Notes under the pieces: model-generated
Told to the model about the DNA's origin: nothing
The model's database searches: none
The model's input: the letters and a program-made list of their open reading frames with translations, nothing else
Program-made: the position numbers and the translations under genes
Part shown: positions 3,480 through 45,596 of the stretch, piece by piece
Position numbering within the stretch: the stretch's first letter is position 1
Layout of the letters: each line of letters opens with the position of its first letter
Assembly: GCF_000189635.1 (NCBI RefSeq)
Contig: NW_002476163.1
Location: forward strand, 248,001 to 312,000
Source: Tetrahymena thermophila SB210
Taxonomy: Eukaryota > Ciliophora > Oligohymenophorea > Hymenostomatida > Tetrahymenidae
Direction: 5' to 3'
Length of the DNA: 64,000 nucleotides

Positions 3480-4158
3480 AAGGAAGCTTTCTTTCTTTTA
3501 GCTACGATTAATTCTTCTTTGTTTGCTTTAATATTTTATTTTTTTGTTTATAATTGTTAATTTTAGTGAAGAAAAGTATTGATATATATAAAGACAGACA
3601 GATAGACCCCTCCCAACAAAAACATTCAAAATAGAATGTTTTATTTTATTCTATAATAAATACAAATGAATTTCATGTATAAATCACTAACAATATTTTA
3701 TGAATTCCTTTTAAATCAGCACTCTAATCAAGTTTATTATTTCTCAAAAATTACAGTAGTATTTTTTGAATTTAGTTTTAAATAATTTTTTTTAGGCTAA
3801 GATAAAATATAGAGTTAGGGTAAGCTCAATTCCGTTATTAATTTCTATTAATCTAATTAATTAATAATTCATTCCTTGAAAGAAAAAGTAATTTAAAAAA
3901 GGCAAATCCACACCAATGCATAGTATTTTTTAAAAATCCTAATAAAAATATAAATTCAAATAGATAACTTTTTTGCTATTTTCCTTCTATAGTTTAAGTT
4001 TTTAAATATTGATAATACTTGAAATTATTCATTAAAATCCAATTAAGAATCTGTTAAAATATGCCATAAATTTATAGCTTAATTACAGCACACACCAAAA
4101 TATAGATTTTAATTAATTTTTCACCTAAATATAAATTAAAAGTTTTTTTTACCATTTT
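3480..4158. other. Intergenic, between the Q/N-rich gene and the 5S gene
   Basis: AT-rich sequence that must hold the promoter of the minus-strand gene starting at 3479. A short CCCCTCCC patch near 3606 is the only GC-rich feature. No gene is supported. Confidence 0.5.
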
Positions 4159-4172
4159 AAAAAATATTAAAA
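4159..4172 (-). terminator. Pol III T-run terminator of the 5S gene
   Basis: On the minus strand the 5S 3' end runs into a T4 tract (4172-4169). After a short AATA spacer comes a T6 tract (4164-4159). T-runs immediately after the mature 3' end are the standard RNA polymerase III termination signal. Confidence 0.75.
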
Positions 4173-4291
4173 GGTTGTCGACACTGGGACTTCCCAAGCG
4201 GTCCCCCACCTTAGTACTAACCCAGCCTTAAGGCGCTTAACTTCGGAGTTCGAATGGGATCCGGTGTTTTCACCTTAGTATGGCCGACAAC
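4172..4291 (-). rRNA. 5S ribosomal RNA
   Basis: A 120-nt segment that reads on the minus strand as a complete eukaryotic 5S rRNA, beginning GTTGTCGGCCATACTAAGG and ending CGACAACCT. The two ends are complementary and form helix I. The internal Pol III control region is present: a box A-like AAGTTAAGCGCC and a box C-like GGTTAGTACTAAGGTGGGGG. The sequence agrees with what I remember of Tetrahymena 5S rRNA. Its GC content is far above the surrounding AT-rich DNA. Only one copy is present here. It is followed by T-run terminators. I see no damage in the internal promoter or the terminal stem, so it looks functional. Confidence 0.95.
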
Positions 4292-4624
4292 AAAATTATG
4301 TGTTAATATTTATTAATTAAATATGAAATAACATAAAATTAACTCTAATTTAATAATTTAAGATATTTTTTTAAAAATTTAACTCTAAAAGCATTGATTA
4401 TTTTTTAAAAATTTTAAATAAAATTTTCTTAAGTATTTAATTAAATAATAATATCATATCACTTTTTATAAAAAATTTTCTTTAAATTGAACTGTTTAAA
4501 TTTAAAGCTATTTTAATTTTGAATAAAATTGATTTAAATTTTAAAAAAATAAAAATTGAATAGAAAAACAGATAATATTATTTATTTATTTAAATAATTA
4601 ATAATTTATTAATATTTAATTTGA
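4292..4624. other. Intergenic between 5S gene and TPR-like gene
   Basis: About 330 bp of nearly pure A/T sequence forming the 5' flank of the 5S gene and the 3' flank of the next minus-strand gene. Nothing is recognised. Confidence 0.5.
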
Positions 4625-7285
4625 TCAACTATTGTTTAATTAGTTTACCTTAATTTAGCACTAATAATAAAAGTATTATATATTTTCTTTGACTTGTTCA
4701 ATAACTCTTTTCATAATGATAGAAACCTTCTTCAATCTCATTGCATCATTTGATATAAGCTCAATAGTTTTTTCATGAATTCGATTATTTAAATTGACCA
4801 TAGCATCTATTTAACGACTATTGCTCAGATGATTTATATAAATTTTATCAAAATTCTTTATTAAATTATTCTTCATTACTTTAAACTTTAACTTATCAGA
4901 TGATATATCAATATTTCCTCTTAAGTTAACTTATCCATGCTTTCTATATAGCGCTTTAGGAGTTATTGGCCCATAAGGAATTGACATTTTATTTTTTATG
5001 GTAGCTATAGCTTTCATTCCCTCTAATGAAGAAATGTTATTATTGAATTTATACTTATTAAGCCTTGTATTTTTAATTGACTCATTCATTTAATTTTGTA
5101 AAATGGACTATTCATTAAGGCCAATACTAGGGCTTCTTTAAAGAATTTCCTGTGATTAGTTTTTTTTTAGGCTGTCTGTATCAAATTTTGCTTCTTTTAT
5201 GCTCTGACTTTGAAGCTGATTTTAGGATAAACCAGCAGTTTTAAATTATTCTAGTTCAAATTCATCCTCAGAGAATGAGTTGTCCTAGAGTGTTTTCATT
5301 TTTTACTCTTACTCATATTTGACTAATTAAATTCCTAATTACCTATAAAATGAGTTTAAATTATTTTCCTAATCTCTCTAATAAAAATAACTTACTTTAA
5401 TCTTGAGTTGTTTGTTTCTAAATTATAATCAATCATTCTTTTGTGGAAGAAAATAGCTAATTCTAAGTTATTTTTATAAAAATAAGCTTTTGATATTTAC
5501 TCATAAGCATAGTTTTCAAAATCTTTTTTATTATAAAACCATGAATATTTCAACAATTTTTTTAGATATGCTAATTGACGATCATATTCTCCCTTTTTTC
5601 TATAAATTTCTGCCATGTTCTTGTATCCTATGATTTTATATAGGAAAGTTTATGAGCAATTACAAACTTTTAAAAATTCTTTCCAGCTTTTTAAAGATAT
5701 GTCTAAATCACTGCATAAAGAAGCAAGCAAACACTATATAAAGTTATTTATTTATTAATGTAAAAAGCTAGTAAAATAATTTAATTAAAAACAATAAAAT
5801 ATAAACTTTGATGTATTTGATCTACAGAGATACTGAGATATTGATGCAATTAAATGCTCTGTCTTCAATATCAGTCAATATTTTATACAGCTCACCCATG
5901 CTTGTCTTGTAATTGTTCAATTTTTAAATAAATAAGTCAAAATCTTGATAAAGTTATTAACATAGATTTGTCTGTTGTGATAATTTGCTGTTTTCATTTT
6001 AATTATTTGAAGTTTCTTTAAGTTTATTTTTTCTTTTTCTTTAAAGAGGGGAAAGTTCTATATCTATTTTCAACTATTCCTATTTTTGAATTAAAAATTA
6101 TTGAAAAATAAAATTATTTGCTGAAATTCTTATGTTTACTGCTTGTTTTATATTAATAAATTCTATCTCTTAAATGTATGAGCTTGTTTCATGAAGGAAA
6201 CTCTACTTTTGTTATATATATGTTTTTAACTTTTTTTTGCTATTTAATTTTGAAAGAGATTAAGAACCAATTAGCAGCTTATCACTCCTTTTATTAGGCT
6301 GAATGATATTCTATTATTTTTGTTACTAGAAGTAATAACTTTATTAATCAACAAATGATTTCTATAAAATTTCTTTGCTTCCATTTAAATCTAATTTAGA
6401 AAAAGCTCTGCTTTTAAATATATCAGACGCTTTGTGCGAAAAACTACTTTCTTCTTCTTTATTTAAGGATTAAATTGAAAATTCTCTTGCTGTTTCTTCT
6501 GTTAAAATAAATTTCTGAATTGATTCTTTCATTAAATTCTTAGTTGAGTGGAAAGATGAAGACTTTGGTTAATAGTTTGGTAGATATTTTTACTATTAAT
6601 TTTATGTAGAATTTAATACTGTTTGAGAAGCATTCATTTATAATAAATTTGATTAAGTTTACTGCACTATTTTTTATACAAATTAAGCATCACTATTCTT
6701 TCTCTGGCCTCTAACTAATATTGAAGTATTTTAATTAGTGAATAATTCAGAATTAAGTGTGTTAGGGTATGATGCTGTTTAAATATTATTTGAAATATCG
6801 CTTTATTGGGTTAAATTAGTTTGGTGCAACTTATCATAAGTTTCATTGGTCTCTGCAAAAAAAGAGTTTAAAAAGTTGGTCGAAGTTTAATTAGTTTTTA
6901 AATTTTTAATACTTTAAAAGGGATTAAACTAGTCTTTTAAGTAGTGCATTTATTTGATGTTATCTTTCTTAGATATGTGGAAAGGCTGAGAGTTAATTGT
7001 TGTTTAAAAGTTTGAATTGCTTTAATCTTAATAATATGAAGTGTTTGGACTTTTTAAAGATATGTGTTTGGAGGTGTTTAAAGACTTCAATCTAATTTAC
7101 TAAATATTTTTGAAAATATTTTAGCTTTTAAATTCTTGGTTTTATTAGATGTTATTTTTATTAAGAGTGCTCTGCATGCTTTAGTTGTTGCTCTCGTTTA
7201 ATAAGTTAAATAATTCATTTTTTCTAGCAACTATTTCTCCATTAAATTCATTTTATTAGACTATATTTAACAAAGCATTCCTCAT
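4625..7285 (-). CDS. TPR-like protein with long Q/S/N-rich N-terminal half
   Basis: Predicted 844-residue protein in three exons (7285-5807, 5733-5396, 5342-4625). The introns are 73 nt (5734-5806, phase 0) and 53 nt (5343-5395, phase 2); the total is divisible by 3 and the stop is TGA. The first ~430 residues are disordered and rich in Ser, Gln and Asn. After that the chain becomes helical. Around residues 480-610 it shows helix pairs with TPR spacing, such as MAEIYRKKGEYDRQLAYLKK and ISKAYFYKNNLELAIFFHKR, with the alternating small and aromatic residues typical of tetratricopeptide repeats. Such repeats act as protein-binding scaffolds; the partner is unknown. The C-terminal ~230 residues are basic and unrecognised. 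No signal peptide or membrane span is seen. The start is the first ATG of the open frame. Confidence 0.75.
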
Positions 7286-7896: not shown

Positions 7897-10800
7897 TCAA
7901 ACTATATTTTAAAGGAAAATTGATTTGAAAAATGGAACACCTACTAGACAAATCAAGTGCTCAAACAGTGACCTACATCTCTTAATTGAAAGTTCATAAT
8001 CATCGTTTTTATTGTCTTAATTTTGACTACTTTAATCTATGCCATTTTAAATTTGGTTGATAGAAAATTTCTGGTCTTTATTTTGGTTGCTTTAATTTGG
8101 AAGAAAAGGCTATTTTTAAAACTTAAATGTTTTTTTCTTCATACTTTTATCATTGTTTTCATCGTCATCTTCTTTTTAAATTGGTATAACTTTTTTCTAT
8201 TGATCTTCAGCTAAAGTTATGAAAGTTCTTTCAATAAAATTAATAGGATTATTTAAGTTTCCATTGAATAAAATCTCCTTCATTATTATTAATTTACTTT
8301 TTTACTAAACTTCCTCTATTAAAAAAGAATCTAAAATCTTCTTATTTATAAGGCCATTTAAGATTAATTCAAATTACAAACTCAAGAAAACTTTAACTTA
8401 ATCAGTCAGAGTTTTCAGATAATACTATACGTACTCCTTCAATATATCTACTATATGATCTAGATTAGTATAATCTCTTTAATACATGTATAGCCAGATC
8501 TCGTTAAGAATGTTAGATAAGTCTTAATTTGTTTCTTGTTGTATTTTTAGTATTTTAAATTGGATGATTTTCAATTCAACAATTTTATTTAGATAAATAT
8601 TTTCCTTTCCCTCAAAAAATTGAAGACAGTAAGTACTATATTTTCCACACTTTTCTAATTCCCTCAATGTAAAACTCTCGAGTGCTATTTTATATGCAAT
8701 ATCAGCACTATTTTTATTTTAATCTCCTTTTATCGAAGTGTATATGTAAAAGGCTGTTTCATATTGGCCTATTGCTTAACTAGTCATTCCATTTTGAGAT
8801 AAAATAGTTGCCAATTCAAAAATACCTTAAAAAAGAAAAAAATTTTAATACATTCATCTCTTTAACCATCAAATAAAAAGATAATTTACTCTAAGCAGTC
8901 CTTTTGTGATTGGTGCCTACAATTTTCTACACTAAATTGCAACTAGCTTTCATTAAAATTATTTACTCTTAGTATTAACCTATAAACTCGTAATAAAGAG
9001 CCATGTTATTTAACAGTCTGCAGTGTAGAGGATGCATCTTACCTAGATTAAAGTTAATAATTTCTTCTGTTTTCCAAAAAAGGTATTGAACTTTTTGATT
9101 TTATTTCAATATAATGTAGCACTGTATTAACAGGCATAGTGGATCAACAAGCAAAATAGATGGATAATACTTTTTTATAGATTATAAATCAATATAAAAT
9201 ATTTTATTGTAATGAAATTACATCTAAGCAAGATATGCACTTGTTTAAGGTTTCTATACATTCTTTATAATATCCAATAGAGAAATAAGATTTAGATAGG
9301 CCATATAAAGTAAAAAATCTTTCTTTATGCTCTTAATTGATAGCCTTAATAATAATTAAAACATTTTAAAATCAGAATAGTTAAAAATGATTAATTAAAT
9401 TTCAACCTGTGAGATTTTATCCTAAATCAAGATAGTTTAAACTTGCTTCTGAGGATCACTAGGATACTACAAATTCGCATAGATCTAAATTGGAATATCT
9501 TTATAGTCAAACATTTTAGATTCGTATTAGAAGTCAAGAAAATTTTCTAAAGTCAAGATTTCTACAGGTTCTTCAACTTCCTCAGAAATGTTTGATGCAT
9601 CCACAATTTTAGCAGGCTGAAATTCAAAATTAGATTAATCCTGCCATGGCATTTGCACATCGCTTTTTTCTTCATAATTCGTTTCTTAATCTACCATTTC
9701 TAATTACTGTAATATCTACTAGGCAAAGGCATTGCTATATTTATTTCTATCTCTCTTTTAGGTATCAAATATATCAGTACCATATGAGAGTATAAATTGA
9801 GAATGATAATGAATAGCATTAAGAAGTCCGCCTTTTTCAAACTAGTCAAGAGATACTTTTTAACGATAACCATATTCCATTAAAATCTATGTATTTATCT
9901 ATTCCCAATATTGCTGAGACTCAGCTGAATTCTCAAAAATTAAATTTAAAGTTTCAATTATAGCTTTTTTTTAATTTGTATTTGTATTGAACTTTATGTC
10001 ATTAGCTTTCTATTGCTAGTTATTCATTTCAAGAATATTTCTTTTATTAAATTTTTGTTTAAATGAAATTAATTTATTCCAGGAAATTTTATTTTATTTT
10101 ACCCTCTTCTTAAAATTGATGAGGAAGTTTTTCTGCTTTGAAATGTAAACTAAGTTAAATAACACCTAATCATTCTTTTGACAGTCCTTGCTACCATTTC
10201 TTATTCAAATAAAAGTTTGACATAAGGCGTGTTACTGTGTTCAGCAATATAAGATATATACCTAGTTATATTAATTTTTTTCTCCAGTAAATAAATTCAA
10301 AAAAAACCAAAAAATTAATTTACTTAATATTTAAACCATTGCTATGTAAAGCTTCTTTGATAGTGTGACTATCATAAGGTATTATATCAAGACTATCAAA
10401 TTATTTTATTAGCTTAAAAAGTTTCGTTGTTGATAGATAAAGTGAATATTATTCTACTTCTTCAATATCAAGCTAATCTTATTTTTCTATTTTTATTAAT
10501 TGAAAATAGTTCATCTAATCCTACTTTTCTCTAATATTAGTATTATCTGGATTTTTTCCTAACTTTATCTAAGAAAAATAAGCTTCAGGATTTAGAGATT
10601 TCTTCTTTTTCAGAAGAATTTCAGGCCTTATTTTTCTAGGGTAACGCATTTGATTTTTATTAAATTAGCAATCTAAAAATGAGTTAATAGGATAGAAATC
10701 ATTATAATTTTCAATATAAAACTAGTCTTCTTCTTTATCTTGATCAATTAAAATTGTGTCTTTTTAATACTTAACTAAATTACTCTTTGTAGCTCTGTCT

Positions 10801-13736
10801 CCTGCTGATTTGTGAATCTAAATTTTTTTATTAAAATACAAAAAAAAGATATTTTTTTAACTAACTATCAAAGCAAAATATAAAAAATTTTCAATATATT
10901 TATATATTTAACACTCAAATTACCTCTGTTTCAAATGTTAAAATACATTGTATAGGCTCGTCATGCTTCCAACCAAAATAATGAGACTTAATTCTCAATC
11001 TTTATCTCAGTTTTTCTGCATCTTCTTCTATTTTTTATTCATATTTTTAAACTTTTTTATAGCCAACAAAAGTCCCATCTTTTTCAATGTCTGGTCCATA
11101 AACTATATTCTTTTCATATTAAGGCCTTGCATAAACTAGTATCTTAAATCCAAGGTAGTCTACTATAACAGACAAAGGAACTCTTAAGGAGTAAGTAGGA
11201 TCATACTTTCTAATCTTTATGTAACTACTGCTTATACTGTTTAATATTCTAAATTAATCCCCTCCAAACTTAATACTTGATGAATCAAAATAATCAACAC
11301 CTTCTTCTTAATTATAGCTAATATCTTACAAATAATCAGGTACCAAGTTAATTTGCTTTGTAAAAAAAACTTTAGCTATAACATTCTCTTCTGGAATATA
11401 AAACATATCATCTATATCAATTTCTTTGTTTGGATCTAATTGGAATAAATCCTTAGTGCCTTGATTTTTCTTTGTGGGACTTTAACTTTTTAAATTTTAG
11501 CTACTATTTAACTCTCGAATTTTCTCTAGTTCAGGAATAGCAACCATACTTTTAAATCTAGGTTCATAAATTGGTTTTGGCTACATTAAATCCTCAACAA
11601 GAGATTTAGCAGCTCTTATCGCCTTTTCTCTAAATTATCCTAGATATAAAAATAGTTTAATTCCTTCCTTTAGCTAATCCTCAAGTGTTGATGCTTTTAA
11701 ACTACTCTCTAAAAAACTATGGTATCTAAATTAATTTATAAAATATTTAACATAAATATTATTTTATTCAATAAACTTTGTCTAAAATATTTATTATATT
11801 TAAACATCAAAAATATTTTGTATTAACTTTCTGATATGAAACATACAATTTTGTAAGCTATTAATAATTATTTAAAATGCATTCAAATATTTACTCCTTT
11901 CAAAATCAATTAACTAATCAATCAATAAGACAATCTCTTAAAATTCATTCATTTTTAATACAACCAATTAATTACATATTCTAAAAAATTTAAGAGGAGT
12001 AATAATAATGTATTTTAATTGTGTTAAATACTCTTTATTAAAGTCTAAATTTGATTAAAATTAACTTTACCTAAACTCATGACTGTTTTCAGCATTTCTT
12101 CTGACAATAGCTTTTTCAATACTATCTTTGAGTGAATTGTCAGAAGACATAGGAAAATATCCTATAGTTGTATGCTATTTACCTAATCTTAATCTTTAAT
12201 AGGGAGAACCTCCATACTAGCTGTTTAAATTTGAATCACTACCTATATAGGTTAGAGTTTTTTATTTTTACACTATTCTATTTGCAGTAGTCATACTCCC
12301 TCCATCAGAGATATTTTATTAAATAGCTGATTATGTGTTTCTTAAAGCTGGAGTTGATGGCACATTTTTTAATTCTTAATCACTGTTTTGATCTGAAAGC
12401 ACTTGCTATGACTGTGTTTTTTGAAGTTAGCTACTTTAAACTGTTGGTTGAGGTAATAAATTGCTAAAATTAGGTATACTAGAATTACCATTTCTTTAAA
12501 AATTTCTTTTAGTTTCTAACATAGGAGATGCCACATCTTTTTCTTCTTCAGGATCTTAATTCGAAGAAGAAGATGATGACTATGATTACTACACTTTTTC
12601 CATATTTATCTTAAATGTTTCGTTTGTAGTTTTTTAATAGGATTCTGTGAGGTAAGGAATGTTTGAGAGTGTATCTTTTAATAATTAAAAATAATTTCAA
12701 AAACACAAATCTCAAATAAAATAATTAAGTCACTGACTGCTATAAAATATAAAACAATTTATTTATTTATTTATACCTTTATCGTTTTTTATTTCTAAAA
12801 TGCTTTGTCTCTTTCCTTTAAAGTTTGCTAAGCGTTAAACTGTATGAGCTATATTATTTTCTTTTCTGGGTGAAGATGAAACTTACTCAAAAGAGGGGAG
12901 CTAATTAAAAGATCCTTTTAAGCTAGGCTAAGAATTTAGCTTCATTTAAGATGTATTTTTTAATGGGGATTAATCATTTCCTTTTTTAATAGGACTTGCC
13001 TTATCATCTTGATTTTTCTTTTCTTAATTCATTTTTTTCTTTAAATTATTTAAGTCTTCTTATTCATCATAACGACTAGCTTCTTCATCTTCCTCATCTT
13101 CTTCATTTAATTACTCATTAAAATTTTTAATAAATAAGTTTTCTTTTTGGTTCCCATTAAAATTTAGAGAAGATTGAGACTCCTTTTTCTAAATTGAGTT
13201 GTATTAATTTGTATTATGATTTGTTTAATCTTCTTTTTTGCTACTTTTCGCTTCAAATATCTTCTATTTTATAAACTCTGCTTGCTCAGATTTTTTACAA
13301 ATGAACTCCCAAGTTTCAATGTCATTTTCCTTTTTGCTTATAATTGATTTTCTTTTCATATCAAAAAGACCCTTTTTAAGGAACTCAATTACAATTCTAT
13401 TTTTCTTTTCTGAAGTTAAGTTAATAGCCTAAATATATTCTATGTTAATGCCTTTTTTAAATTTGCCACTAACTGGCTTATCTTCAACAAAATTCTTTAC
13501 AGGCTTGAAATACTTCAATTATGCATCTTCAAGTTATAAAATTCTCTTAGTTTTTTTATATTATACTAAATTTAATGTGGTTCTAAATTGGAATCATCAA
13601 ATAAATGTACTTCGTTGCTAAATAGCTTGCTTGATGATATTTTATGAACTTTCTTACTAAAAAAAATTCCTTATGGCAGTGCTGGCTCTGATCTATTTTC
13701 TCCATTTGTATTTGTCCTAATTGAAGGAGTTGTCAT
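7897..13736 (-). CDS. CLU (clustered mitochondria / TIF31) family protein, 1754 aa
   Basis: Nine exons: 13736-13611, 13545-12777, 12674-10924, 10817-10324, 10261-10103, 10040-9407, 9344-9222, 9169-8890, 8825-7897. The introns are 52-106 nt, all GT-AG, and phases agree throughout. Family evidence: a CLU-domain stretch near residues 790-870 contains VDYLGFKILVYARP and a following NIVYG. A RPEIL segment lies near 950. The most telling block is near 1035-1090, with EALHSNGLNIKYISYIAE and then FEQEMVARTVKRMI, matching the conserved CLU central region. Residues about 1310-1480 contain TPR-like pairs such as YGLSKSYFSIGYYKECIETL, as expected of the family C-terminus. CLU proteins bind mRNAs for mitochondrial proteins and keep mitochondria dispersed. 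The first ~600 residues include a helical region near 70-140 and long Ser/Gln-rich linkers unlike other CLU proteins. The first intron (13546-13610) and the intron at 10041-10102 are the least certain. Confidence 0.82.
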
Positions 13737-14503: not shown

Positions 14504-17500
14504 TCATTCATAGGCAGGTATTTTTTGGCAAAAAGAGTCGTAAATACTTGCTTCAAGAGTGTTAAGGCAAATAAGAGATGTTTTCTAGTTTTCAGACTAT
14601 TCAGGTAATTCGACATATTCTAAATCAGGAAAAATTTATTTCACATGCATCAGATTGATTGTAGCATGGTTGGTGTAGTTATAACCTGCTACCATATTTT
14701 TATCAAGCAAATATTTAGCGAGCTTGTTGAGCTCAACATGCTAGTTTGGTAATGAAGACTCAACCCAGCAAGGGAAAATAGTTCTTCTCTCTTTAGTTTC
14801 TTGTATTTAAATCTATTAAAAAAATTATTTATAAAATAAATTAGGTTTTTAAATAATTACATTTTTGATAGATTCAATAGCAGTTTCATAGTCTAAAAAT
14901 CCAAGCTCCTATTAAGAAGTTCTGTTACGTGTTGATATCAATGGTAAATGTCTATATTACTCATATGGCATGAATGTATTAAACTAGCATAGAATGTTAT
15001 AGCGCTTGGGCTCATCAGGTATTACGTATACTAGTCTATCATGAAATAGCTTTTAAGTAAAATATTAAATTAAATAATTAAGTAAGTAAATCAAATAATA
15101 CATTGTAAGCTGTGTTTTCACAGGGTTCGCAAAGAATTGACTACTTTTCAGGGACAAGATATTTCTTATATACTTAGAAAAATCCGGAGTATGTTTAATA
15201 CTTTTTAAGTTGACTTTCCAACAATTTTTATGGATTAATAATTATAGCCATTTCTAGATCATCATCATCTCCATCCTCTTGATCTATAGTGTCTTTATTT
15301 GAAATTAGTTAATTTATTGATCCTTCGTAAATCTACTCATCGAGAGGTATACCTGTAGGATTATACTCCTTGTCAGTATCCCTATCAACAATCAAAGGAG
15401 AAAATCTAGCAAAGCATCCTTCTTCCTCTTTTTCTAAATCTATGAATTATGGAATTTTAGACTTAGCTTAAAGAATGGAATCTTCACCTTCTTCATTTTT
15501 TTTAACTCTTTTAGTACCAAATATTCTCTCCTAAACTTCTGTTTCTGACATATCATTAATACTAAGTACTTGAGTTTATTTTTTTTCTTACAGTCTAGGG
15601 TCTTTCGAGGGTCTTTTAGTGAGTAATTTGCTATCATTATTTAAAGAATCTTAATTATTACCTCCCCAGCTTGATGTTGTTGTTGCTTAAGTACTTGCTG
15701 CTTCTTTTACTTAAGATGAACCCCATCCACCCCCACAACCTCCTTATACTGTAGTGTTATCTTCAGTAGTAGATCCCCATCCACCTCCTCCACTTTAAAC
15801 TGAAGGTGCATTGTCTGAAGAGTTATTCCAACCACCTTCCCCAGAGTTACTTTTTTATTTATTGTTATTTACAAAAGAAGAATTATTATTATTATTATTT
15901 CTATTATTATTTCCCCTAAAATTTTATCTCTCTCCTCCTTAATTTTAATTTGAGTTGTTTCTATTATTTCCATTTCCCCATGAGCCTTATCTTTTATTCT
16001 CACCCTAATTCTAATTGTCAGATGCTCCCCATTTTTTACCATTGTTGCCTCCTCCATTATTTTCACTAGAGCTGTTGTTATTATTAGAGAAAGATGAGCC
16101 CCATCCACCAGTTCCAGACTAAGTTGAATTTTCTATTTTTGAGGATTCTTAATTCCCCCATCCTCCTGATGTTGTAGAATTTTCATTATTAGAACTATTA
16201 TTACCCCACCCATCTTAAGAATCACTCTTATTAGCTTATTATTCGTTATTTTGTTTTGAGTTTCCCCAACTTCCGTTTCCTTGCTTTCCTCCTTACTAAT
16301 CTTTATTTTAGCCCCATGCTCTATTTCCTCCCTATCTATTATTATTGTTATTCTAGTTGTTGTTCCCATTATTTCTAAATCTGTTGTTATTATTAGTATT
16401 GCTATTATTGTTATTATTTGTAGATGTTGAACCCCAGGAATCTCCTCCTCCTTGAGTTTAATCAGAAGTGTTTCCCCAACCTCCACTACTTGATTGAGAT
16501 TCTTATTTATTTTCAGTTTATTAAGATCCCCATCCTCCACTAGATTCACTGGTTTAGTTTGTATTTGCTGTTGTATTAGTATTCGAAGAACCCCAACCTG
16601 AAGAAGCTTCAGAACTGTTTTTATTTTCATTTGTAGAAGATCCCCATCCACTAGAAGAAGTGGTTGTATTATTTTAATTAGCATCGTTTGAGGAAGCTCC
16701 CCAGCCACTTCCTCCTGTAGATTAAGAGTTATCATTAGATTAGCTATTCCAACCACCAGAGTTGTTACTTTAACCTTCGTTTGAATTGGTCTTTTTGAAT
16801 GAATTATTTCTATTTTGGTTTTAAAACCCTCCACCATTATTATTGCGTTCTCCGCCATTTCTGTTGTTGTTATTCTTATTCCAGCCTCCTCCGTTATTTC
16901 CATTTTTATTCTCTCCTCCTTCTTTGTTAAAGTTCCTATTATTATTGTTGTTGTTGAATCTCCTTTATCCTCCATTGTTATCATTTCCAGATTCTCCATT
17001 ATTGTTATTTCTATCGAATCTTCTTCCACCTCCATTATTTCCATTGTTATTGTTATTATTTCTATTAAATCTACCTCCGCCTGAGTTATTATTATTATTA
17101 TTATTATTACTTCCATTGCCATTTGAAGAACCCCATCCTCCGCTATCAGTAGATTAGTTACCCCATCCACCTTCTGAGTTATTTTTATTGGAATTATCTT
17201 CATTTCCAGAAGTAGAACTTCCCCATACTGCTGTTGATGATGATGGATTGTTATTGGTAGATGATCCCCATCCACCTCCATTTCCTTCATTATTTTAGCT
17301 TGATGTATTATCATTGCTTTGTGCTCCCCATCCTCCTGTACTAGAAGATTGAACGGATTCATTATTAACTTTATCTTTATTACTAGAACCCCATCCTGAA
17401 GAAGATGATTTACTTTCTGTTTAAGCTCCCATAGAGTTTTAACTGCCTCCCCATATATTAGAGGAAGAATCTGACTTAGGAACTAACTCATTTTAAGATT

Positions 17501-17987
17501 ATCCTCCCCATCCGCTTCCGCTAGTGTTTGAAATCGATTAATTTTATGTAATTGAAGTTTCATCTTTAGTATTAGATTCCCATGTAGTAGAACAATTACT
17601 CATTTTAGCAAAATCTACCTATGTATTAGCACTTTCTCTCAAAGGTTTAGAGTCATCTGTTCTCATATCACTTTATAATTATCTAAGAGGTTGATCTTCA
17701 TTTCCATTTTAATGCATAGAATCTTTCTCTCCTGATGATTGCTTTTTAGGCTTTTCATTTTATTTTTCTTGTAGAATTTGCTGCACTCTATCTGTATTTA
17801 TTTCTTCAAAAACAAAGCTTTTAGGTTCTTCATCTTCTGCTTCTTTATCGTCTAAAGCAGGTTACTTATTCTAAATCATGTGATTGATGTCCTTAGCTGC
17901 ATCCAATTACTCACAACTTAGCTAACCACTTTCAATTGAAATATCATCTTTTTGTTCCATTTCTTAATTAACTAGAGAAACTTCCAT
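14504..17987 (-). CDS. WG/GW-repeat (Argonaute-hook type) protein, 1127 aa
   Basis: Three exons (17987-15102, 15049-14861, 14812-14504) with 52- and 48-nt phase-0 introns; stop TGA at 14506-14504. Residues about 158-775 hold roughly 24 Trp-Gly dipeptides, mostly as GGWGS, SGWGS or GGWGN. They sit in Ser/Asn/Gly/Gln-rich sequence, with R-G-N-rich patches around 330-430 (for example GGRRFDRN). WG/GW arrays of this kind are the Argonaute-hook platforms seen in GW182, SPT5L/KTF1, NRPE1 and Tetrahymena Piwi-associated proteins; binding here is inferred from the repeats. The N-terminal ~150 residues are acidic and charged. The C-terminal ~350 residues are ordinary folded-looking sequence with conserved-type Cys, Trp and aromatic residues that I cannot assign. 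No zinc knuckle (CCHC) was seen. It may be one of the known Tetrahymena WG proteins or a new one; I do not give a symbol. Confidence 0.85.
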
Positions 17988-17988
17988 T

Positions 17989-18076
17989 CTAAATTTTTGT
18001 ATAAAATAGGATATCAAAATCAATTATTTTTGCTGAGATAAAAATCATGTGAATCTTCATCTCTAATCAAAATTAC
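17989..18076 (-). other. Probable intron in the 5' UTR of the WG-repeat gene
   Basis: Reading the minus strand, a GTAATTTTG donor (from 18076) follows a purine-rich exon-like sequence. An acceptor AAATTTAG ends at 17989, one base before the ATG of the WG gene. The 88-nt length and AT-rich interior suit the introns elsewhere in the window. No ATG is needed upstream, so the intron would lie in the leader. Confidence 0.45.
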
Positions 18077-40076: not shown

Positions 40077-41213
40077 TCATTTTTGATTGCTGTAAAATTT
40101 TTCTAAAAAAAATTGAGCATTTGCATTATATTCCCAATCTTGCTCATTATCAAATACTCTCAAGTCAAATTTTTACTTAAATGCTTTCCTGTAAGAAAGA
40201 AGAAAGTCTATTTGATTTTAGCTTATCTCAAAGATTTACAAAATCATAAAATGCTGCATTTTAGTGTTAAATATATTTTTTAAAAGGGGATCATCGTTTT
40301 AGAAAATTAAAAACTTTGTTTTTGCATAGACATCTATACCATCAAATGTTTTAATTATAAAATCTTGTGGTTTTTATTAATCCCAAAAATTATTCTTCAA
40401 CTATAAAAATATACCAGTAATCCCAAATATTGTAGAGTGATATAAAACCTCTAAAATTCCTTTTCTCATCATGAACTGCTAAGCTTATTAAGGGTCAAGA
40501 CCAATAAGTGCAAGCAACAGTTCACTAGTTGAGCAATGAGTCATCTAATAATCAGCATTTTCATAATCAACTTTAAAAATATTGTATTTAAAAAAGCTCA
40601 TCTACCCTTCTTTGTACATTGTTTTAATTTATGTGTGCATTTTCTATACAAATTACTAGAAGCTTTCTTCGATAAGATTTCTAACCATATCAATTTACTT
40701 ATATTGTTATAGCATTTTTTATATGTTTTATAGTTCTTAAATTCTCTTTTTATGGTAAATAAGATGATTAGAGATAGTTCTTTATTCCTAGTTTGGTTAC
40801 TGAGATAAAAGATCTATGATATGATCAAAATTTCCTATACCATAGCTTAAAGTTTCAAAAACCATTTCTAATGTTGCTATTTCTTAATCATAATTAATGC
40901 AAACTATTTTTTTAAATTTATTATAATTTGAGAGTCTACTAAATTGACCATCTCCCCTTAAAGGAAGGATTACATCTCCTTTTATCAAAATAACACCATC
41001 ATTTAAATCATTTAAAAGCGAGCTACCAAAGTGATAAATATGCTTCACTTAATAATTTTATTACTTCAGCTCAAGACTATCTTTAACTTTTTTATCTTTT
41101 TTTATATGGTTTTACTTTTTTTATATACTTTTAAGAGTTGAAACTTAAATCTTTTGCTCTTATTCAGTTTCTATGAACTCATTTTATTCGATTGTTGCTT
41201 CATTAGTTGACAT
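40077..41213 (-). CDS. Paralogue 1 of a tandem three-gene family, 378 aa
   Basis: Intronless, 378 residues, stop TGA at 40079-40077. It shares three blocks, in the same order, with the genes at 42024 and 44487. Block 1 is LLALIGLDPQQAQQFMMRKG. Block 2 is IKTFDGIDVYAKTKFLIF. Block 3 is a C-terminal acidic-aromatic block FDNEQDWEYNANAQFFLEKF. The N-terminal ~60 residues are Lys/Gln-rich and could be a basic, coiled-coil-like leader. A helical region with Gln-rich repeats lies around 130-200. I do not recognise the family. The order basic helix then compact domain recalls bZIP-PAS-type regulators, but no bZIP consensus or PAS signature is clear, so this is only a possibility. No signal peptide or membrane span. 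Confidence 0.8.
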
Positions 41214-42023
41214 TTTAAGCTATTAAAGATAATGACTTATCTATTAATACTTTTAATTATAAATAATAAAATTGCAATTATATCCAATAATTAGATGATC
41301 TCAAATTAATTAAATTCTATCCAAACATTATTATAAACTATAAAAAAATTCCTAATTTTCTTTAAGATCACAAATATTATTAAATGTTTGAAAGGGCACA
41401 TTTGCGAATCATTATTAAACCATTAGAAATTTAATACATTACTTCTTATAATTAGAAAATTTTTTAAAAGCTAAATAAGTTGTGCATGAATAAAATATAA
41501 ATAAATTCATTAAAATATTATTTTAATTTATTATGAAAATTATTTTATGCATTAGCATTGCTTATTCTTGGATCTTTAAAATTGACGATAGTCTTTTCAT
41601 TAAAATTGAAAAGAAAGAATCATTTTTTGAATATTTTGTGTTGTCAAAGTCATAAAATTGCAAACAAATAAATGTAGTCCAAAACTTATATTCAGAGAAG
41701 ATTTATCAAAAAAATTGTTTATAAATCTTTCTTTAGCAATATTCTATTGTTAAAAATAACCAAATTAAAAATGATTTATATTGAGAGAGAAATTTAGCAT
41801 TCTAAAATTTTATATTAAAACCTTTAAAATTTCATAATTATTTTAATATTAAATTTGCAAAAATGGGAAATTCCAATCAATATTTTTAATAAAACAAATT
41901 GTATAAAAGACAATTTATAAATGAATAAATAAAGAAAGAAAGAAAATATGGTATAATTGCTTATATTAATACCAAATTAGTTAATAAATCTAGATAAAAG
42001 ATATAAAATTTTATATTTATTTC
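41214..42023. other. Intergenic between paralogues 1 and 2
   Basis: About 810 bp, AT-rich, holding the promoter of the gene at 41213 and the 3' flank of the gene at 42024. No pseudogene remnant of the family was recognised. Confidence 0.5.
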
Positions 42024-43319
42024 TCATAATTTATTTGGATAGAATTATTAAATGAATTATTTAGATTATGCAGCATAATCCCAATCTGATTCATTTTCCA
42101 ATTAGGTAAGATATTCAAAATTAGGTTCTTTTTTACGAATATCAACTAATTATCTAAGCATATTCGGAGTAATGTCATAGTCTACAACAATGAAAAATTC
42201 TGTTAATAATATTCCTCCTTTACGGGCTATCGTATTATCCATATTATAAAAGATATGAAAGTTGGTATTCACCTATAAATCAATTCCATCAAAAGTTTTT
42301 ATCATGCAGTATGATGAAAATTTTGTGATATTTTCATTATATAAGCTGAGGCAGTGCAATTCTATTCCAAATTCCTCCAGTGAAAAAACAAATTCAAACA
42401 TACCCTTACGCATTATAAATTATTAGGCTTACTCTTAGCTTACCCCTAAAATTGCTAGCAATAATTAGCTCATAGACATCTATTCAATCTCATAAGTTCC
42501 TTCTTAGTAATTAATTTTAATAAATTTTGTCTTGTAGAATTTAATAGTGTAGTCTTTTATCATTTAAAGCAACTAAGCTTAGCATTTTTATTTAAAATTC
42601 TGATAAACTATCTCACTAGCCTATACAAATTCCTAAAAATTAGGCATTTTCGATATAGATTACACGAATTATTTTAATCTATCTACTCTTTCTTGATGTC
42701 TAACAAGCTACTAAGCAATTTAGTACATTGTTTAATTGGGCTGACTGCTGCAGAATTATATCAATTCTCCAAAATGGTCAACGCCTTTTTAAAAAGTCGT
42801 CATGTGTATATTTAGTTAGTCAATATTTTTATCTATTACTAACTTAGCCATCTTCTTATATTTGTTAAAAGTTCCTATCCTTTAGAAGTCTTCGTGATTG
42901 AAGTTCATAAGGATATCACCATTTAACAAAAACTCTCTATTACAAAAAAGATACTTTTAAAGAGGTATATTAACAATTTAGAGTTTATGCATTTAATTAG
43001 GCTAATCTTCTACTACATTTACACTATTATTATTCACTAGTACTAATGTGCTATTTTCACATTTATTTTATGAAGGGCTTTCTTTCTCTCTTTCTTCTAA
43101 AGATGAGCTTTGCTATGTATTTTCATCTTCATATATTGATTGAGGGTGGCTTTAACATGAGGAATATGAATTTTATGAAGATGCTGATGGAGAGCTAAAA
43201 TTTATAACTAATTCATGATTTTGTAAATTTATTCCATATTCATCTACTGGCAGTTGTTAATTATAACTCATGTTGCTATATTGATGAAAATCTTCATGAA
43301 AAATAACTTCTTCTTCCAT
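42024..43319 (-). CDS. Paralogue 2 of the tandem three-gene family, 431 aa
   Basis: Intronless, 431 residues; stop TGA at 42026-42024. It carries the family blocks LLAILGVSQEQAQQFIMRKG, MIKTFDGIDLQVNTNFHIF and a C-terminal NESDWDYAAQSKQFIQQFY. It differs from its neighbours by an acidic Ser/Glu-rich N-terminal extension of roughly 130 residues in place of a basic one. Between about 160 and 260 it is helical and Gln-rich, like paralogue 1. Spacing to the flanking copies (0.8 and 1.2 kb) and shared orientation point to tandem duplication. Divergence outside the blocks is high, so the duplication is old. Function unknown. Confidence 0.8.
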
Positions 43320-44486
43320 TTATATTCTATTTTTTATTTTTGAGAAAACCCTTTTGTATACTTGTAATACTTATTTTATTTACTAATTAATGTATTTATT
43401 GATAAAAGCTTATGAATAATTAATTATATAAATCCAAATATATGGCTAGTACTAATAGGATTTAATTATCAGGAAACTTATAATATCACCAATACCAAAA
43501 TAATTATGGTAAAAAAAATGATACAAACTCAATTAAATTATACAATTAAACATATTTAATATAGAATTAATCTAATTTAAATTATTTAGTATATTAATAA
43601 AGAAAATTGAATTCTTTATTTTCTTTCTATCAATCGAAATATTTTTAAAACAGATTATTTACTTTTGGTAATTTTAGCCATTAGTTTCTATTAAATGAAT
43701 TAAATTAAATTTATTTTCAATTAAAATTTCAGTTTAAAATGATTTAATTTAAAATTAAAAAAAGATTTTAAATATTTTTAAGTTATTTAAAGATTCATGT
43801 TTAAAAATAGCATTTTTAAAATTTAAATTGATAACAGTTTACATTTTATTTTGAAAGATTTTATAATTGATAATTATACAGAATTCTATCTAAGAATGGA
43901 AGCAATCATATAGAAAAGAGCACAATATAAATGGGATATTCATAAAATATAAGAACTTATTTAAATAGACATCTAGAATTTTTTAGATTATATTTATATT
44001 ATTTTGTATTTTTACTCATTTTTTGATAATTTTGATAAAATTTTGATAAAATTTTTTGAACAAAATACTAATTAGCTTAATTAAATAGTAAGTTGTAATC
44101 TAACATTCTAGAAGAAAAAAAGAAAAAGTAAAAGCCTCTATGATAAGATATGATTAGGTATTATAAACAAACAAATTAAAAATTACACAATAAAATAGAT
44201 AACAAAATTTTTATTTTATTGTTTCAATTTAAAATAATTTTTTTCTTATAATTAAATATTTTTTATTAAAAAATTATTTAATGGTTGCATTCATACTTTT
44301 TATCAAATATAATTATTTTATTTAACTGAATCTATTAAAATTACATTAAAGAGCAATAATGAAAGAAAATTACTGATACATTTTAAATATAAAATTCTAT
44401 AAATATATTTTTGTTTTTTTGGATAACTTTAATAGGTTAATTTTTATTTACAACAATTTATTAGTAAAATTGTATTTTCATTTAAC
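43320..44486. other. Intergenic between paralogues 2 and 3
   Basis: About 1.17 kb of AT-rich sequence with homopolymer runs; no supported gene. Confidence 0.5.
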
Positions 44487-45596
44487 TCATAAGAAAAATC
44501 CTGATGTTTCTGAAAATGCAGTACTCAGCTAAGTTGGTACATCGTTAAAATATGCTATCTAACTTTATGTTTGTACCTTCTTTCTAGTAGAATCATAATA
44601 TCTAGAAATAAATTTTTCAACTTCCTCAGAGTAATCCCAGTCTTATTCATTTTCAAAGAGTTCAAAATTAAAAGCAGAGTTTTTTCTTATCTCCATCACT
44701 TGCTAAACCATAGTGTCGCTAACTTCAAAATCAGCTATCATGCAAAACTCAGTTCTGTCTAAAAGAGTGCTCGAGCCAGTAAGTAATTCATCATTAAAAA
44801 ATATACGATAGTTAATTTTTGCTTAAATAACTATTCCATCAAAAGTTCGAAGGGCTGTTTCAAAGCTAGTCTGCTATATTCTTTCACAAGCAATTTTTAA
44901 AAAAAATTTCACATGTTGACACATTTTTTAAACATTCGCTGAGTCAAATATACCCTTTCTCATAATAAACTATTATGCTTATTCTAAGTTAAGCCCCATC
45001 AAAGCAAGAAATAGCTCACTTATGTAATACTTTTTTATTTCATACATGAAATTTTCAGTGTTTATTTTTACTATTTTGAATGAATAAAATTTTAACTCTC
45101 CTTTTTCTTCCATTAACCTCACTTTTTATCTCATTTTTTCTTCAAAAGACTAAGAATTTTTCATAATTGTTTCTTTAAAAACCTCAAAATTTTCATTTGT
45201 CTTCATGCAGTCTGCTATCTAGATTTACTTATTGACAAATTATTAGTGTTTTTCTAAAATTAAACCAAATTCATGCATGTACTAGCAAGGATAATCCTTT
45301 AACATTTAGACAACATGTCTAAAATCAGAAATCCCGTCCACTGTATTAGTCATTTCTATTTCTAATTGTCTATTGCATTTTGAAAAATTGCAATAACTAA
45401 TCTTTTTAAAAATGTTTAATTTTGAGAATCTGTCTGACTCTATATTATCAAAAGTGACTATCGCATCACCTTTCATTATAAAAACTAAGTTTTAATTGAG
45501 ACACTTTTTTACTATTGGTTGAATTTACAATTCTTTTTTTACATATTTCTTTTCTTGTTCATCCTTTAATTCTCTTAACTTTCTTTTTAGATTCAT
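44487..45596 (-). CDS. Paralogue 3 of the tandem three-gene family, 369 aa
   Basis: Intronless, 369 residues; stop TGA at 44489-44487. Family blocks are LFLALMGLNLEQAQQFIMRKG-like (written here from residue ~200), LRTFDGIVIQAKINYRIFF and FENEQDWDYSEEVEKFISRY. The N-terminus is short and basic (MNLKRKLRELKDEQEKKY), closer to paralogue 1 than 2. About 35 residues follow the last block, a tail not present in the other two. A helical Gln-rich section lies between the N-terminus and block 1. No known domain is recognised. The start is the first ATG of the frame, and upstream sequence falls to pure A/T. Confidence 0.8.

Follow-up and report, generated by a model that had tools for sequence, protein, structure and literature searches.

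A WG-repeat gene of Tetrahymena thermophila that is most likely WAG1, encoding a known partner of Twi1p

Disordered regions that carry many WG dipeptides and bind Argonautes occur in GW182/TNRC6, NRPE1 and KTF1/SPT5L, all of which act with partners of the AGO clade. Their arrays are accompanied by other domains, namely UBA and RRM in GW182/TNRC6 and NusG/KOW in KTF1/SPT5L. For GW182, the multi-WG Argonaute-binding array is described in the available part of a 2025 Argonaute survey (PMC12477606). The same part of this survey describes the known tryptophan pockets of PIWI-clade Argonautes as variable, and questions whether GW binding is a shared property in that clade (PMC12477606).

The systems closest to the locus studied here are those of T. 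thermophila itself. In the available text of PMC5666084, two GW-repeat proteins, CnjBp and Wag1p, are placed in the Twi1p pathway and act redundantly in scnRNA selection, and an excerpt of PMC6562869 states that each of the two interacts with Twi1 and with the other. Both genes are listed among the 18 co-expressed with TWI1 (WAG1, R 0.93; CnjB, R 0.95) in the accessible portion of PMC2636879, which also identifies WAG1 as TTHERM_00299879, split from a prediction that had fused it with TTHERM_00299870. The passages available from PMC6562869, PMC5666084 and PMC2636879 report for Wag1p an interaction with Twi1p and CnjBp. The protein is further reported to act in scnRNA selection and in the excision of IESs. 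We found no literature on the identifiers TTHERM_002997 to TTHERM_002999 beyond PMC2636879. Nowa1/Nowa2 of Paramecium tetraurelia also belong to the closest known systems.

We analysed a 64,000-nucleotide stretch of the T. thermophila SB210 genome (hereafter the window), in which a sequence-only reading had pointed out a gene for a WG-repeat protein as a candidate new Argonaute/Piwi partner. Our main reading is that this gene is WAG1 and that its product acts as a scaffold for Twi1p by the mechanism proposed below, a joint claim to which we give a probability of roughly 0.85.

The gene was confirmed on the minus strand at 17987-14504, as an open frame under code 6 (the ciliate code, in which TAA and TAG stand for Gln). 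Its predicted spliced product has 1127 amino acids, and the length of every exon is a multiple of three. Exon 1 (15102..17987), delimited by its open frame and composition, encodes a Gln/Glu-rich acidic N-terminus (residues 1-150), the WG/GW array (residues 160-774; 15666..17510) and the start of the C-terminal region, up to residue 962. Two GT..AG introns are predicted from the sequence: intron 1 (15050..15101; 52 bp, 88% AT) by a frame change and composition, and intron 2 (14813..14860; 48 bp, 92% AT) by composition and splice signals. Exon 2 (14861..15049), which lies between them, is an open frame that joins in phase and continues the C-terminal region, and exon 3 (14504..14812) is the open frame that completes it with a TGA stop. 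Intron 2 is itself open and a multiple of three in length, and could alternatively be read through. The start codon is uncertain, because a splice-acceptor-like AAAATTTAG immediately precedes the ATG. We noticed a possible intron (GTAATTTT...AAAATTTAG) directly upstream of this ATG, at 17989-18076 on the minus strand, across which an upstream frame ending in ...IDKEAIPDVQLLRR would join the open frame in phase; the protein may therefore begin further upstream.

The protein contains 29 tryptophans, 27 of which adjoin glycine, and all of these 27 lie within residues 160-774, where they form 24 WG and 19 GW dipeptides and 16 GWG tripeptides. Both the number and the spacing of the WG motifs exceed random controls. 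In 2000 shuffles of the array that kept its composition, the tryptophans touching glycine averaged 9.1 and never exceeded 18; a second set of 2000 gave a mean of 5.1 WG (maximum 12) and 0.9 GWG (maximum 5). As for spacing, 21 of the 26 gaps between successive tryptophans measure 14-24 residues, a range picked after inspection of the data; when the tryptophans were placed at random 20,000 times, gaps of this length numbered 5.7 on average and 15 at most. The array of about 24 regularly spaced WG motifs described in the sequence-only reading thus holds up well. The remainder of the array is rich in Asn (26%), Gly (18%) and Ser (18%), with Asn-rich segments that bear Gly/Arg/Phe groups (GGGRFNRN, GGGRRFDRN) interspersed, and we infer that it is disordered. 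A multi-WG array, here probably disordered, is what the protein has in common with GW182/TNRC6, NRPE1 and KTF1/SPT5L. Of the accompanying domains, neither UBA or RRM nor NusG/KOW was matched in Pfam, whether by the whole protein (E<=1) or by its C-terminus (E<=10).

In DNA, the 27 units of the array are identical to one another at 43% of their letters on average and at 65% at most. Of the five rows that Tandem Repeats Finder returned for the gene, four are runs whose units measure 3 or 6 bases, and the fifth is a 51-base array with 2.4 copies at 16998-17117, in a stretch of Asn/Gly/Arg devoid of tryptophan; no WG unit was found by this program as a tandem DNA array. Because the units are so dissimilar in DNA and form no tandem array, it looks as though the WG pattern is maintained at the protein level and not through recent copying.

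We then asked how many such genes the genome holds, scanning an assembly of 101 Mb in 445 contigs, which may be incomplete, with nucleotide patterns that represent WG as TGGGG with fixed neighbours and would be escaped by a GW-only or WG-poor gene. The strict pattern GGATGGGGN{22,52}GGWTGGGG matched nine times, six in the window gene and three at C356:21831-22999, and its reversed control matched twice. The looser ATGGGGN{20,50}VTGGGG gave 29 matches (reversed control, 22), distributed over the window gene (5), a CCHC gene on contig C356 (4), contig C277 (4) and scattered sites with at most two per contig (16). These 16 are at chance level, since the reversed control gives 22. The four matches on C277 are two overlapping pairs in what we read as a protease-like sequence with papain-like WG...WG motifs, and were rejected as a WG-array gene; likewise, a DNA match on contig C148 belongs to a cysteine-rich protein, in which it encodes a run of Ser/Asn/Gly. 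The contig ends examined carry TTGGGG telomere repeats, which swamped two further WG-codon patterns that were left out of the count. By these scans, the genome appears to contain two clustered WG-array genes, the window gene and that on C356.

The WG repeats of the C356 gene (locus L036, G000:C356:17500-27400, at 3528-5672) are interspersed with seven CCHC knuckles. Of the 23 tryptophans in its product, 18 adjoin glycine. CCHC fingers combined with glycine-rich or GW repeats are the architecture of CnjB, and by this architecture the C356 gene looks like CnjB (TTHERM_01091290). It resembles the window gene in its Ser/Asn/Gly-rich WG array and in the contexts of its tryptophans, with S or G before, and G followed by S or N after. 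The window gene differs in the lack of the knuckles: its product gave no match in Pfam at E<=1, and the 20 CCHC places listed for the genome at E<=0.001 all lie on contigs other than that of the window (C327).

With two WG-array genes found in the genome, two published GW partners of Twi1p and a CnjB-like gene on C356, the window gene is most simply, and by elimination most likely, WAG1. The gene is encoded in T. thermophila, and its GW/WG repeats (24 WG, 19 GW) stand above shuffled controls. Set beside Wag1p (TTHERM_00299879), the product is alike in the two features compared, species and GW/WG repeats, and no difference was seen at this level. The species is indicated by the TTGGGG telomeres and by exons of telomerase reverse transcriptase from the same genome. 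Over stretches of 102 and 120 residues, the printed alignment of these exons with 6d6v_A, which we take to be the T. thermophila telomerase enzyme, shows no difference; residues 1-58 and 161-181 of the query had no close match and were taken as intron and wrong-frame sequence. A gene of the window queried for the same purpose had no match in the PDB at E<=0.001. The novelty claimed in the sequence-only reading is accordingly the part that we give up: the gene very probably encodes a partner already known rather than a new one.

If WAG1 had been missed by our scans, owing to its codons, to few WG dipeptides or to an assembly gap, the window gene would become the third GW-repeat gene of T. thermophila, its so far uncharacterised product being neither Wag1p nor CnjBp and binding Twi1p or another Twi. 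Room for such a protein exists, as Piwi-domain matches occur at 11 places in the genome (13 matches in all, with three pieces on contig C173 counted as a single place; five of the places form one cluster), several of which may need a partner. Nevertheless, the clustered WG-codon scans offer no other candidate for WAG1, a gene that a complete assembly has to contain, and we consider a third GW protein improbable.

Downstream of the WG-array gene, at 7897-13518, we observed open frames of one or more genes on the same (minus) strand, and the segment 10915-12603 within them matches CLU (clustered mitochondria) at E 1.6e-7. The early prediction that fused WAG1 with its neighbour, TTHERM_00299870, is compatible with a Clu-like gene lying close behind the window gene on the same strand.

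As for function, the proposal that the protein is an Argonaute/Piwi scaffold fits both its anatomy and the literature on GW proteins of T. thermophila, and in our view it is probably correct, with only the attribute "new" very probably wrong. If the gene is WAG1, the disordered WG/GW array would offer many weakly binding tryptophans to Twi1p loaded with scan RNAs during conjugation. The tryptophans would be the contacts to Twi1p, and the array as a whole would serve Twi1p-scnRNA as a multivalent platform. This would take place in the parental macronucleus, where the C-terminal region probably tethers the complex to a further partner; the Gly/Arg/Asn-rich stretches may contact RNA. Acting redundantly with CnjBp, the protein would contribute to the removal of scan RNAs matching the somatic genome, and elimination would thereby be confined to germline-limited sequences.

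One point speaks against tryptophan-mediated binding of Twi1p. The partners of GW182/TNRC6, NRPE1 and KTF1/SPT5L are of the AGO clade, whereas L009, the single Piwi domain from this genome compared with the PDB, found its best matches among PIWI-clade structures; the variability of the tryptophan pockets in this clade would count against such binding here. The same variability (PMC12477606, in the part available), together with a composition of Asn, Gly and Ser interspersed with Gly/Arg/Phe motifs, could be taken to favour a WG-rich low-complexity protein whose tryptophans serve as generic stickers in RNA binding or condensates and not in Argonaute binding, but tryptophan stands beside glycine at a steady pitch far beyond what composition gives, and GW proteins of T. 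thermophila are reported to interact with Twi1p in the accessible text of PMC5666084, PMC6562869 and PMC2636879, which makes this last explanation highly improbable. Should the gene be WAG1 as we propose, the present analysis adds to a known pathway a model of this gene, statistics on its repeats and a count across the genome, which stands at two clustered WG-array genes. It also draws attention to two points: the C-terminal region, which has no assigned family, and the way in which a WG array would be read by a PIWI-clade Argonaute whose tryptophan pockets vary.

The C-terminal region (residues 786-1127 after splicing; 14504..15632), at most a candidate folded domain, differs in composition from the array, Leu and Ile together making up 17.8% of its residues vs 0.8% in the array. 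Consistent with the sequence-only reading, it could be assigned to no family: Pfam gave no match at the curated cut-off, and the PDB no credible relative. Searches of the genome for a second copy returned only the gene itself (14504-15391 at E<=10; 15102-15650 at E<=1), which is a further difference from the CnjB-like gene on C356. Among viral contigs, the stretch from exon 2 through intron 2 to exon 3 had no relative by tblastn, 11 stretches matching a pattern only. A single structure model of the same unspliced stretch, computed without an alignment, had a mean pLDDT of 32.4 with 181 of 181 residues below 50, and is meaningless as a guide to the fold. Two weak matches in the C-terminus were taken as chance, namely mS33 in the PDB (E 0.18-0.24) and SBDS_C in Pfam, which reached roughly half of the cut-off (E 0.025-0.049). 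Visual inspection of a short stretch had suggested a SPOC-like C-terminus, a reading that found no support in the Pfam or PDB searches; the SPOC profile (PF07744) matched nothing in the genome at E<=10, and the control genomes were equally without a match. It is tempting to go further and suppose either that the gene encodes a third Argonaute partner with GW repeats or, should the gene be WAG1, that its C-terminus is a ciliate-specific folded domain linking Twi1p-scnRNA to the machinery of scan-RNA removal, a composite idea that we hold as tentative and, on the whole, doubtful.

Elsewhere in the window, three neighbouring open frames on the minus strand (40077-45596) have the motifs QAQQFIMRKG or QAQQFMMRKG and TFDGI in common. 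One of them (42024-43943) had no Pfam match at E<=0.01, and the three look like tandem paralogues. A 5S ribosomal RNA gene (117 bits) is located at 4173-4291, also on the minus strand.
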